A stretch of 49,829 nt of DNA from Planctomycetia bacterium (GTDB lineage: Bacteria; Planctomycetota; UBA8108; UBA1146), in assembly GCA_009937185.1 (NCBI GenBank), contig JAACCY010000169.1, positions 1 through 49,829 on the forward strand, read 5' to 3'. Under the pieces are notes generated by a model that saw only the letters and a list, made by a program, of their open reading frames with translations, was not told the DNA's origin and ran no database searches. Each line of letters starts with the position of its first letter. The first letter of the stretch is position 1. Positions 9,594-30,074 of this stretch are shown here, in pieces. The position numbers and the translations under genes are program-made.

Positions 9594-9744
9594 TTCGTCC
9601 TCCTGCTTCCTCGGTCTGCTGGTACACACTCAAAGTGTTCCTTACCATAAACCCAAGGACGGGACTGGGGGAGTTGAAGGTGACGGGATTCCTCCGGATC
9701 TGATTAAAAATTAGGACGAAGCCCTGCTGAGGGGCATTAAACTG

Positions 9745-9760
9745 CAAGATTATAATCTTG
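9745..9760. promoter_or_regulatory. 16-bp perfect palindrome containing TATAAT
   Basis: CAAGATTATAATCTTG is a perfect palindrome 20 bases before the selenoprotein start codon, and TATAAT at 9751-9756 is a consensus -10 hexamer. No good -35 lies 17 bases upstream, so this may be an activator- or repressor-controlled promoter for the small SelW-like gene and perhaps ettA. Confidence 0.4.
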
Positions 9761-9780
9761 TCTCGGGAAGGAGAAGGCAG

Positions 9781-10008
9781 ATGGATATCAGTATTGAATA
9801 CTGTGTGAAGTGAAACTACACCCCACAGGCCACCAGTTTGGCGGCTGACCTAAAAGATAAGTTCGGTGTAGATGCTCGTCTCATCGAAAGTGGAGGCGGC
9901 GTTTTTGAGGTTGTGATCGATGGAGAACTTGTATTCAGCAAGAAAGAGCTCAGTCGATTCCCGGAGCATTCAGAAATCTATTCCGCGATTGAAGACCGCC
10001 AGGTCTGA
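9781..10008 (+). CDS. SelT/SelW/SelH (Rdx) family selenoprotein with in-frame UGA
   Basis: A gene of 75 residues that ordinary translation would cut at codon 11. AAGGAG lies seven bases before ATG 9781. The product starts MDISIEYCVK, then TGA (9811-9813), then NYTPQATSLAADLKDKF, and ends with GGGVFEVVIDGELVFSKKEL...RFPEH. Read through the TGA this is a complete Rdx-family protein. The redox motif is C-x-x-U (Cys8, Sec11), and the C-terminal GG.FEV..DG.LVFSKK signature is exactly that of SelW-like proteins. Family members are small thioredoxin-fold proteins thought to work in thiol redox reactions. A hairpin suited to a bacterial SECIS follows the TGA. The ettA gene starts 39 bases downstream. 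No selenocysteine machinery is in this window. Confidence 0.85.
9826..9847 (+). promoter_or_regulatory. Candidate bacterial SECIS hairpin
   Basis: Just after the in-frame TGA the mRNA can fold as CAG(9826-9828)/CTG(9845-9847) and CC(9830-9831)/GG(9843-9844), then CC(9833-9834)/GG(9840-9841). There is one bulged G, one A-C mismatch and a five-base apical loop AGTTT. The loop lies 22-26 bases after the TGA, within the window used by SelB-dependent bacterial SECIS elements, and the GG/CC closing pairs with G in the loop fit the loose consensus. Hand-folded only. Confidence 0.55.
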
Positions 10009-10047
10009 TCACGGTCACGTGACACATTTAGAGAGACGGGTAAAGAG

Positions 10048-11733
10048 ATGAGCAGCGATTCTCAGGAAGTCATCTTCCAGGTCACCGACGTCCACAGATC
10101 CTTTGGGACGAAGGACGTTCTTAAAGGAGTCACCTTAGGCTTCTTCAGAGGCGCCAAGATTGGATTGATCGGAATTAACGGTTGTGGAAAGTCCACGCTG
10201 TTGAAGATCATTGCAGGTGTGGATGATGGTTATGATGGAATTGTGACTCTCGCCAGAGGGGCCACCATTGGTTACGTTCCACAGGAACCTTCTCTGGATG
10301 AGACAAAGACAGTTCGAGAGAACGTAGAGATTGGAGCCGAAAAGGTTCGCAATCTTCTTGAAGAATATAATGCTGTAACAGAATCTCTCGCCACTGAGTT
10401 GTCCGACAAAGCGATGCAGGAGGCCTATGACCGCCTCGCTGAACTTCAGGAAAAAATTGATGGCTCTGATGCATGGGAGATTGATCGACAGATCGATCAA
10501 GCGATGCACGCCCTCAATTGTCCTGCAGGGGACTCGATGGTCGCACACCTTTCCGGTGGCGAAAAAAGACGGGTTGCCCTGTGCAGAACTCTGTTGGCGC
10601 ATCCCGATATCTTGCTTCTTGACGAGCCTACCAACCACTTGGACGCAGATACTACAGCATGGTTAGAGAGACACCTCGCTAACTATGAAGGTACTGTTTT
10701 GCTCATCACTCACGACCGCTATTTCTTGGATAATGTTGTCGGTTGGATGTTGGAGATCGATCGAGGGCGTGGAACTCCCTTTGAAGGAAACTACAGTCAA
10801 TATCTTGAGCAAAAATCGAAGATATTGGAAGTTGAAGCTCGGCAAGAAGATGATCGCCGGAAGCAACTCAACAAGGAATTAGACTGGATTCGCCAAACCC
10901 CTAGAGCACGAGCCAAGAAAAGTAAAGCTAGGGTTGAGTCATTCCATAAGCTTCAGGAACAAGTATACGAATCGCGAAAAGATGTTCCTGCATTGGCGAT
11001 TCCATGCGAGACCAAATTGGGAGACAAGGTTCTGCAAGTTAAAGGAATGACCAAGTCCTACGACGGAAGAACTCTCTTTGATGATCTCTCTTTTGAACTT
11101 CGTCCGGGCGCTATCGTTGGCGTTATTGGCCCCAATGGTGCGGGCAAAACCACATTGATGAGATTGATTGCCGATCAAATTGAACCGGACGCTGGAAAAG
11201 TTGAATTAGGCTCTACGGTTCAACTTTGCTTTGCGGATCAGAGTCGTCAGGAATTGGAAAACAACAATACGATCTACGATAACATTTCTGAAGGATACGA
11301 CGTCTTTCAGGTGGGTAAGGTCGAGATTGCCAGCAGAGCGTACGTGGCTCGATTTGGATTTACCGGAGAAGAGCAAGAGAAGAAGGTCGGGGATTGTTCC
11401 GGAGGACAGAGGAACCGAGTTCAGATGGCGAAGATGCTTCGTCGTGGCGGAAATCTGGTCATCCTCGACGAACCGACCAACGACCTAGATATCCCAACTC
11501 TTAGACTTCTCGAAGAAGCTTTGGAAGCATTCCCTGGATGCGCCATCGTGGTCAGCCACGACAGGTACTTCTTGGATCGAGTGGCGACCAATATCCTCGC
11601 TTTAGATGGAGAGGGTGGGGGCCGGTTCTTTGAAGGATCCTACGAAGCATACGCAGAGAAAATCCGTCAGGAGCGCATAGAGCGCGGTGATGATCCTGAT
11701 GTTCCAAGGGGAACTCACCGTAGATTCGCCTGA
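10048..11733 (+). CDS. ettA: Energy-dependent translational throttle protein EttA (ABC-F ATPase)
   Basis: Soluble tandem ABC ATPase of 561 residues (E. coli EttA is 555). It binds the ribosomal E site and gates the first elongation step according to ADP/ATP ratio. Domain 1 has Walker A GINGCGKST, signature LSGGEKRRV and Walker B ILLLDEPTNHLD. A long charged linker with the arm region follows (residues ~240-320, with RQTPRARAKKSKARVE typical of EttA). Domain 2 has GPNGAGKTT, CSGGQRNRV and LVILDEPTNDLD. It lacks membrane segments. It follows the selenoprotein gene by 39 bases in the same direction and may share its transcript. Confidence 0.95.
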   Translation: MSSDSQEVIFQVTDVHRSFGTKDVLKGVTLGFFRGAKIGLIGINGCGKSTLLKIIAGVDDGYDGIVTLARGATIGYVPQEPSLDETKTVRENVEIGAEKVRNLLEEYNAVTESLATELSDKAMQEAYDRLAELQEKIDGSDAWEIDRQIDQAMHALNCPAGDSMVAHLSGGEKRRVALCRTLLAHPDILLLDEPTNHLDADTTAWLERHLANYEGTVLLITHDRYFLDNVVGWMLEIDRGRGTPFEGNYSQYLEQKSKILEVEARQEDDRRKQLNKELDWIRQTPRARAKKSKARVESFHKLQEQVYESRKDVPALAIPCETKLGDKVLQVKGMTKSYDGRTLFDDLSFELRPGAIVGVIGPNGAGKTTLMRLIADQIEPDAGKVELGSTVQLCFADQSRQELENNNTIYDNISEGYDVFQVGKVEIASRAYVARFGFTGEEQEKKVGDCSGGQRNRVQMAKMLRRGGNLVILDEPTNDLDIPTLRLLEEALEAFPGCAIVVSHDRYFLDRVATNILALDGEGGGRFFEGSYEAYAEKIRQERIERGDDPDVPRGTHRRFA

Positions 11734-27060: not shown

Positions 27061-27866
27061 GAGTTCTTTGCCTTCTCTTCTGCGCGACTTCCGTCTGTTT
27101 CTGCGTTCGGATGAGGGATATACGGGACTCCCCGCAGTTTCAGTTTAGTCGCTTGCCAATAAATGGCCAGCCAGCCTGCCAGTGTGACACAGGGATTTCT
27201 AAACAATACCTTTGTCATCATTGAACTACTCCAGGGCCAACGTTGACCCTCTAGTTTTACGTCGAAAACTTTTTTTCCCTCTGAAAAATTTTGCATCCAA
27301 ACAGAGAGCGTCTTGCCCGGTTCGGTGAAACCCCAGTCATACACATGATCCATCTTGAAGAATGGAGATACATGAAACTGTTTTTCAAACCTGTTATGGG
27401 TGAATTGGTCTGTGAGGGGAGCTTTCCTCTGATCGGTGACGTATGCATGACGTTCAAGCCACGGAGTATTTGTGATTTCAGAGACAACCGCTTCAAGCTT
27501 TTCTCCACTGCTGTCGAAGCAGTAGTAAAAAGAGACAGGGTTGAAAATGTATCCGAAATACCTGGGATGGGTTAAAAGTCTTACGGGACCCTCTGGTCGA
27601 AAACCTATCTCTGCATTCACCTTGTCCTTGACGACCTCTTTGAGAGGACGACTGGGGTCACCCATGTAATCTGATCTCTTGTAGCTGACGATGTTCGAGG
27701 CTTCGTGTGACCAAAGTGGGTGTTGGCCAAACAAGATGGGGATCTCATCTAGATCTAAATAGAGGTGGTGAATTTTGTATGTGAATTTTATTTTCTTGGG
27801 TGTGTAGCGATCGTGTTCCACATGACCCACATAAATGGCACTGGCAAAATCTCCGTTAGATTCCAT
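27057..27866 (-). CDS. DUF1365 family protein
   Basis: 269 residues. Start set at ATG 27866 (MESNGDFASAIYVGHVEHDR) because GAGGAG lies eight bases before it; an upstream in-frame start has none. The family signature is clear: ASAIYVGHVEHDRYTPKK, then LDLDEIPILFG, LLTHPRYFGYIFNPVSFYYCF and ITNTPWLERHAYV. The function of DUF1365 is unknown, but it almost always sits between a flavin oxidoreductase and a CFA-type methyltransferase, as here. It overlaps both neighbours (11 bases with the oxidoreductase, four with the methyltransferase). A role in fatty-acid or phospholipid modification is inferred from context only. Confidence 0.9.
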   Translation of the reverse strand: MESNGDFASAIYVGHVEHDRYTPKKIKFTYKIHHLYLDLDEIPILFGQHPLWSHEASNIVSYKRSDYMGDPSRPLKEVVKDKVNAEIGFRPEGPVRLLTHPRYFGYIFNPVSFYYCFDSSGEKLEAVVSEITNTPWLERHAYVTDQRKAPLTDQFTHNRFEKQFHVSPFFKMDHVYDWGFTEPGKTLSVWMQNFSEGKKVFDVKLEGQRWPWSSSMMTKVLFRNPCVTLAGWLAIYWQATKLKLRGVPYIPHPNAETDGSRAEEKAKNS

Positions 27867-29136
27867 GAGAAAACTCCTCAAGGTTTCTATTGAACTTTTT
27901 CGCGACTCTCAGTGCGCTATTTACGCCATCCTCATGAAAACCATTGGCCCAATAGGCACCACAGAAATGAACACCCGCAATCCCATCGATCTCATGGTGA
28001 CGATTTTGCGCAGAAATAGCGCTGTTGCTAAAGAGAGGATGCTCGTAGACCATTTTCTCAATAATGCAGTCCGGATCAATTTGAACGTCGGTGCCTACGC
28101 ACTGATCGTTGAGAGTGACGACGTAATCTACGGGTGCGTCGTTGAATCCCTGAAGACTGTTCATCCAGTAGTTCACTTGAATATCTTGTTTATTATCAGA
28201 GGTTCTGACGTTCCAAGCTGCCCGGGCATTAGGAGCGGATGGCAGCCAACGCGAGTCATGATGAAGAGTTGTGGGGTTCGTGGAGAAACGAAAACAACTC
28301 AGTATTTCCGTTTCTTTCTCGGTGGAGTCACCCAGTAATCGAAGAGCTTGGTCACCATGACAAGCCAAAATGACTCGATCGAAAGTGTGTTCTTCGCCAC
28401 TTGCCGTTGTCAGTATTACCTCGGCACCGGATCTATTTATCGATTGAACAGGGCAATTGAGCCGAATCTTATCTCGAAATGGTGCAGTCATGGGATCTAT
28501 GTATGCACTGGATCCACCGACGACAGTTCTCCAGACAGGACGATCGCTTAATTGCAGAAAGCCATGATTGTCAAAAAAGCGTATCAGCGATAAAAGTGGA
28601 TAATCACGGATCTGGTCAAGCGGAGTTGACCACACTGCTGAAGCCATGGGTATGAGATGGTCATCGATAAACGCTTTGGGAAAACGATTTTCATCGAGCC
28701 AGGTTCCTAAAGTGACATCTGCATCCAATGTTCGAAGGAGATCAGGTGCCATTTTATAAAATCTTAGGATCCCTCTTATCATGTTCCAAAAACGTTTTCT
28801 GAGAAGATTCGATGGACGTGCTAGAAGTCCTTTTAGATCGGTAGCATTGTATTCAAAACCGGAATCCGAATTGAAGACACTGAATGACATGTTTGATTCG
28901 CGACTTTTGACACCGAGTCGGTCGAAGATTTCTACGAGATTTGGGTAGGTTTTTTCATTAAAGATAATGAACCCAGTGTCGACGGCGCGCGTCCCTGTTT
29001 CTTCTTGGACATCGATGGTGTGTGTATGCCCGCCGATATAGCTGCCCGCCTCAAACACTGATATATCATTCCCACGGTTCAACAGGCGAGCGCAGACTAG
29101 GCCCGAGATTCCGGAGCCAACGATGCCTATTCTCAT
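27856..29136 (-). CDS. FAD-dependent oxidoreductase (COG2907-type amine-oxidase family)
   Basis: 426 residues. The FAD-binding Rossmann motif is at the extreme N-terminus (MRIGIVGSGISGLVCARLLN), followed by VFEAGSYIGGHTHTIDV and AVDTGFIIFNEKTYPNL. These are typical of the COG2907 family, which groups with protoporphyrinogen- and phytoene-desaturase-like flavoenzymes. The C-terminal GVHFCGAYWANGFHEDGVNSALR segment completes the FAD site. Members co-occur with DUF1365 and CFA-type enzymes and are thought to oxidise or desaturate fatty acyl chains. Its ATG overlaps the desaturase stop by four bases and its end overlaps DUF1365, so the middle of this operon is tightly packed. Confidence 0.9.
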   Translation of the reverse strand: MRIGIVGSGISGLVCARLLNRGNDISVFEAGSYIGGHTHTIDVQEETGTRAVDTGFIIFNEKTYPNLVEIFDRLGVKSRESNMSFSVFNSDSGFEYNATDLKGLLARPSNLLRKRFWNMIRGILRFYKMAPDLLRTLDADVTLGTWLDENRFPKAFIDDHLIPMASAVWSTPLDQIRDYPLLSLIRFFDNHGFLQLSDRPVWRTVVGGSSAYIDPMTAPFRDKIRLNCPVQSINRSGAEVILTTASGEEHTFDRVILACHGDQALRLLGDSTEKETEILSCFRFSTNPTTLHHDSRWLPSAPNARAAWNVRTSDNKQDIQVNYWMNSLQGFNDAPVDYVVTLNDQCVGTDVQIDPDCIIEKMVYEHPLFSNSAISAQNRHHEIDGIAGVHFCGAYWANGFHEDGVNSALRVAKKFNRNLEEFSHGI

Positions 29137-30074
29137 ACTAACCTTGATGATTCTCTAACACTCTTTGGAATGGGTTTCAGATTCTTCACCAAGCCAAGGC
29201 ATGAGAGCGTCCAGAGAATGTAGTAGGTGATATCAATTTCCCACCAGTAAAACCCTTGACGGACTGTGTGTTGATAGTGGTGGTGGTTATTGTGCCAACC
29301 CTCTCCAAGTGTCAGAAGGGAGAGGATGAAGTTATTCCTACTATCGTCGCCGGTGGTGTATCGACGCGATCCCCAGCGGTGAGCCAGGGAATTAATGGTA
29401 AATGTGCCGTGCCACAATAGAACAGTGGAGACGAACCCTGACCACACTAGCATCTGCCAACCATTCGTTCCGAATTCCGGATTGTAGGTTTCGAGACCCC
29501 AGCCGAGCAGGAAGCAAAATCCCCAATAGGCGATTGGGACGACGTAATCATATCTGTCGAGGAATCTTAACTCAGGAAATCGATTCAAGTCTTTGACGAG
29601 ATGATCTTTGGTACTGAAATTTTTATCAGCAAGGAACCAAAGCACGTGACTCCACCAAAAACCGTCTTGCTTTGGAGAATGAGAATCCGGCGGATCGTCA
29701 CTGTGTTGATGATGATGGCGATGATGGGAGGCCCACCATATCGGTCCCCTTTGAGCGGAACTTGCTCCTAAAGTTGCACCAAGGAATTGAACGATTCTGC
29801 CAGTTTGAAAAGACCTATGAGAGAAGTAGCGATGATAAAACCCTGTGATCCCAAACATTCTGATGTAATAGAAGAAAACACAAAACCCGACAGCGATGGG
29901 GCTCACTCCTACCCAAAATATGGCAATGAGAGCGAGATGGCTTAGCCAAAAAGGGCTGGAACGAATCCAGTCGATGTGACGAGGGTTTTCTTCGGAAGAC
30001 TCTATAAAAGTGGAATTATCCAGAGCTGCCTTTAGGTGGTAACTCAGTTTCCTACTTAAAGTCTTAACTATCAT
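29133..30074 (-). CDS. Membrane fatty acid desaturase (three histidine boxes)
   Basis: 313 residues with hydrophobic segments and the three iron-binding histidine boxes of stearoyl-CoA-type desaturases: HRYFSH (81-86), HHRHHHQH (117-124) and HNNHHH (261-266). These enzymes insert a double bond into acyl chains with O2 and an electron donor. The order and spacing match acyl-CoA Delta9-type enzymes, though bacterial members can act on phospholipid chains. It lies between a CFA-family methyltransferase (58 bases upstream) and the flavin oxidoreductase (four-base overlap), which suggests it supplies or further modifies the unsaturated substrate of those enzymes. Confidence 0.92.
   Translation of the reverse strand: MIVKTLSRKLSYHLKAALDNSTFIESSEENPRHIDWIRSSPFWLSHLALIAIFWVGVSPIAVGFCVFFYYIRMFGITGFYHRYFSHRSFQTGRIVQFLGATLGASSAQRGPIWWASHHRHHHQHSDDPPDSHSPKQDGFWWSHVLWFLADKNFSTKDHLVKDLNRFPELRFLDRYDYVVPIAYWGFCFLLGWGLETYNPEFGTNGWQMLVWSGFVSTVLLWHGTFTINSLAHRWGSRRYTTGDDSRNNFILSLLTLGEGWHNNHHHYQHTVRQGFYWWEIDITYYILWTLSCLGLVKNLKPIPKSVRESSRLV

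Follow-up and report, generated by a model that had tools for sequence, protein, structure and literature searches.

Positions 9781-10008 of the window (the whole 49,829-nt stretch of planctomycete DNA analysed here) most probably hold a gene for a SelW-like bacterial selenoprotein, in which selenocysteine (Sec) would be decoded with the aid of a hairpin inside the coding region. From the sequence comparisons described below, we assign this reading a probability of about 0.94. The reading frame starts with the ATG at 9781, contains a lone internal TGA as codon 11 and ends with the TGA at 10006-10008. The features of the gene and its downstream context are listed in Table 1.

Reading frame and protein family

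The translated product of 75 residues begins MDISIEYCVKUNYTPQ. Family profile searches were run with Cys substituted for Sec. The product matched the Pfam family Rdx (PF10262) with an E-value of 2.1e-19 and 69.9 bits against a cut-off of 22.6, and full-length matches were obtained to NCBIfam NF041051 (95.9 bits, equivalog cut-off 88) and to TIGR02174 CXXU_selWTH (60 bits, cut-off 34.2). Comparison of a SelW profile with solved structures yielded the Rdx protein Atu0228 (2fa8) with an E-value of 8e-12 and, weakly, mouse selenoprotein W (2npb; E = 0.002). From this profile match to solved Rdx structures, a thioredoxin-like fold is predicted. Within the host genome, the protein had a single match, which is the gene itself.

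The original prediction had described a frame interrupted by one TGA, an Rdx/SelW-type product with a Cys-x-x-Sec motif and a ribosome site ahead of the start codon. Re-reading gave the identical frame, all three family profiles scored above their cut-offs, and both the motif and an AAGGAG stretch were found where expected (Table 1). Purine-rich or GGAG-like stretches are present in comparable upstream places in the selW genes of relatives.

Table 1 Features of the selW-like gene and its downstream context in the window.
Feature	Position	Strand	Description and basis
Shine-Dalgarno-like AAGGAG	9768..9773	+	7 nt 5' of the ATG; read directly
selW-like gene, Rdx family, CxxU motif	9781..10008	+	75 codons plus stop; frame and family profiles
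CxxU redox motif, Cys8-Val-Lys-Sec11	9802..9813	+	16/16 order relatives and 80/80 wider loci (best 80 of 112)
Internal UGA, predicted to be read as selenocysteine	9811..9813	+	TGA in 16/16 order genomes and 80/80 wider loci (best 80 of 112)
Bacterial SECIS-type hairpin	9828..9846	+	4 bp, A/C mismatch and 3 bp; loop GUU 9836-9838; -8.2 kcal/mol
ABC-F-type ATPase gene, downstream context	10048..11733	+	ABC_tran twice and ABC_tran_Xtn

Decoding machinery and the selA gene as assembled

The host genome (G000) is a planctomycete metagenome-assembled genome (MAG) of 2.77 Mb, divided into 254 contigs and 87% complete. It contains selB (365.9 bits against a cut-off of 242, no stops), a tRNA-Sec with the anticodon TCA, and selD, which lies directly upstream of the tRNA gene (L009:301-1404, contig C70) in the gene order selA-selD-selC. 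Because selD carries an in-frame UGA at an active-site position (SCAGUAAK), SelD itself is probably a selenoprotein. A tRNA-Sec match over the family cut-off was found in 17/17 genomes of the host's order, the best match in G002 being weak and possibly a tRNA-Ser. Further selenoproteins were sought family by family, and at least five additional thiol-redox genes with an in-frame UGA were located in the host (L140, L141, L142, L143, and L137 on contigs C251, C20, C116, C72, and C212). Their motifs are TPGU in a peroxiredoxin-like protein, YSUGIC, DWUGPC, and TWUGPC in thioredoxin-like proteins, and CHYU in an AhpD-like protein; the TWUGPC gene has one TGA in 14/14 genomes. These genes match known marine selenoprotein groups (PMC2398784).

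The original prediction had held that the organism makes selenoproteins, and had named a genome without selB, selC, and selD as evidence to the contrary. All three genes and a selA homologue are present, and the claim is well supported for the lineage. For the strain it is weakened by the selA gene (518.5 bits), which in the assembly has one in-frame TAA and one in-frame TGA. The stops lie at L033:1963-1965 and 2617-2619 (C70), and both codons are leucine in the nearest relative. Elsewhere in the order, no stops were present in 13 near-full-length copies of selA or in the copy in G001, which is split across two contigs.

These stops admit a reading in which the lineage uses Sec but the strain has just lost SelA, so that UGA acts as a stop and selW is a relic giving a 10-residue peptide. 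We consider this unlikely, though more probable than the other alternatives. In its favor, selA stands alone among the genes compared: about 40 others in two stretches were set against the nearest relative, and no conserved gene body was broken. Two further genes that appeared broken were dismissed, as their stops fall in upstream or terminal extensions of the open reading frames and not in conserved bodies, so that no gene other than selA is clearly broken. With the others unbroken, a generally high error rate is not an obvious cause of the two selA stops. Against a loss of SelA, comparison of the remainder of selA with the nearest relative shows 36 synonymous codon differences and 7 that change the amino acid, which indicates that the gene was under purifying selection until recently. 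Moreover, the SelW protein is identical to that of the nearest relative, and no damage is seen in selB, selC, selD, or several other UGA genes. A MAG this fragmented could also plausibly contain base errors or mixed strains.

The selA stops may have arisen from a local assembly error, from strain mixing or from a very recent loss; an artefact or strain mixing is favored because every other Sec gene inspected is intact. It seems improbable, more so than the relic reading above, that the strain has been caught in the act of losing Sec, with a newly disrupted selA alongside intact copies of selB, selC, selD, and at least seven UGA genes, selW among them, or that Sec-tRNA is made without a normal SelA. 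In view of the two stops, we infer selenoprotein expression for the lineage and do not extend it to the host strain. The selA question bears on whether the strain still makes the protein and leaves the identity of the SelW gene untouched.

A separate difference from the nearest relative was observed on the minus strand of the window (27856-29202), where a TAG lies near the first codon of the gene at 27856-29136, apparently in an upstream extension and not in the gene body.

Conservation of the internal UGA and the coding-region hairpin

A selW-like gene is carried by 16 of the 17 genomes of the host's order. The internal codon is TGA in all 16, and the changes in the gene are mostly synonymous. 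A wider scan of named bacterial genomes gave 112 related loci, the best 80 of which come from Planctomycetota, Desulfobulbaceae, Desulfuromonadales, Neomarinimicrobiota, Gemmatimonadetes, Acidobacteria, Chloroflexi, and others. The CxxU position is TGA in 80/80 of these best loci (79 by script and L065 by reading). Neither a Cys form at codon 11 nor a TAA, TAG or sense codon at the equivalent of 9811-9813 was found in the 16 order genomes or in the best 80 of 112 loci; since the scan keeps the closest 80, Cys forms may occur elsewhere. This result agrees with the very few Cys homologues reported for SelW-like proteins in Sec-using organisms (PMC1794560). A sense codon restored in related strains had been named in the original prediction as a sign of sequencing error, and none of the relatives restores one.

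The internal UGA is followed by a hairpin that can be written as GGCC-A-CCA-GUU-UGG-C-GGCU, with a spacing of 22 nt between the UGA and the loop. The published limits for bacterial SECIS (bSECIS) elements are a loop of 3-9 nt with a G in the first two positions, a distance of 16-37 nt from the UGA, an upper stem of 4-16 bp and an energy of at most -7.5 kcal/mol (PMC13188914). The hairpin lies within these limits, having a 3-nt loop with G as its first base and 7 bp with one mismatch (energy in Table 1). The fold alone is weak evidence because the SECIS model accepts 12.8% of the window's 2173 TGA triplets. Fold energy alone was likewise rejected as evidence, since the 120-nt fold from the ATG was no better than shuffled sequences (z = -0.45). 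A search of 9600-10100 against Rfam gave no SECIS family and sub-threshold chance matches only.

Across the order, codons 16-22 (13 to 33 nt past the UGA) show almost no synonymous change. The fraction of identical codons is 0.95 for codons 17-21 versus 0.50 for codons 23-71, and the conservation of codons 16-22 was matched by 2 of 200,000 random column sets. Among 72 distinct sequences, the pairing of the hairpin is kept in 85.8% of cells versus 26-50% in slid versions. Two-sided changes in paired cells numbered 58 versus 21.2 ± 3.4 in shuffles, a control that is inflated by the relatedness of the sequences. The pair types are CG, UA, UG, and GC for columns 21-33 and GC, UG, UA, AU, and CG for columns 22-32. 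The slid control and this variety of pair types are best explained by a real hairpin. Judged by conservation across these genomes, the hairpin is evolutionarily constrained and stands above chance, and the SECIS-like hairpin that had been folded by hand at a suitable distance from the TGA is thus upheld by both the bSECIS limits and the covariation.

Alternatively, a Cys-type SelW gene could have acquired the TGA by a nonsense mutation, or the TGA could be an error of sequencing in such a gene; either would show an identical in-frame TGA in a single sequence, and the MAG origin of the data might invite such a reading. However, independent genomes carry the same TGA (16/16 order relatives and 80/80 wider loci, the best 80 of 112) with no Cys form, and the hairpin 3' of it is under constraint; we rejected this explanation as highly improbable. 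A genome-wide reassignment of UGA, for example to Trp, or readthrough without Sec would account for the open frame and nothing more. UGA also works as a stop, terminating selW itself, in the genes inspected it falls where redox motifs have Cys or Sec, and tRNA-Sec and SelB are encoded; the chances of this second explanation are equally slight, and it was also rejected. A chance open frame, conceivable for a gene as short as 75 codons, is of negligible probability given the Rdx match (E = 2e-19) and its retention in 16 genomes, where most changes are synonymous, and was dismissed.

Proposed function and relation to known selenoproteins

In the selenoprotein reading, ribosomes would arrive at UGA 11, where the hairpin at 9828-9846 would recruit SelB with Sec-tRNA(Sec). 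Sec would then be inserted, and translation would end only at the TGA at 10006. This would yield a small Rdx protein of the thioredoxin fold, in which the Cys8-x-x-Sec11 pair may perform thiol/selenol redox chemistry on a partner. SelW-like proteins are thought to have such an activity from their CxxU motif, and their function has been described as unclear (PMC1088965). Sec insertion, the redox role and a working SelA in the strain are what we infer here. The neighboring genes (TrkH, pirin, M20 peptidase, and ABC-F ATPase) gave no hint of a specific SelW partner.

SelW-like proteins are the most abundant known selenoprotein family of marine prokaryotes, and the selW gene found here therefore extends a known group. 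It resembles the SelW-like selenoproteins of the Sargasso Sea and GOS data (PMC1088965, PMC2398784) in encoding a small Rdx protein with CxxU, in the SECIS hairpin within the coding region and in having few Cys homologues; the host alone differs, being a member of an uncultured marine Planctomycetota order. Among the best 80 of 112 loci, Planctomycetota bacterium isolate BS30m-G49 is the nearest named record. The name of NF041051 (SelTWH_Campy, SelT/SelW/SelH family (seleno)protein), to which the product matches at full length above the equivalog cut-off, points to Campylobacter-type members, whereas the gene here is planctomycetal. Mouse selenoprotein W and Atu0228 belong to the same fold family by profile but are distant in sequence, and in eukaryotic SelW the SECIS element is located in the 3' UTR (PMC1088965). 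For the Porphyra-associated planctomycetes P1 and P2 (PMC4807772), full Sec-insertion gene sets and UGA-containing selenoproteins are likewise described; fdhA and fmdB are among those named there, while the UGA genes in the host's order are SelW-like, SelD, thioredoxin-like, peroxiredoxin-like, and AhpD-like.

We regard selW as a true selenoprotein gene and its recovery as an annotation rescue, not a surprise. Set beside the marine selenoproteome papers, it is an ordinary finding, and it leaves existing knowledge of SelW-like proteins unchanged. A gene that would be missed by callers treating TGA as a stop only has been rescued, and it offers a clean case of a SECIS hairpin visible as a frozen block of synonymous codons. 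With it, a marine order of Planctomycetota can be counted among those organisms encoding a sizeable set of redox proteins based on selenocysteine.
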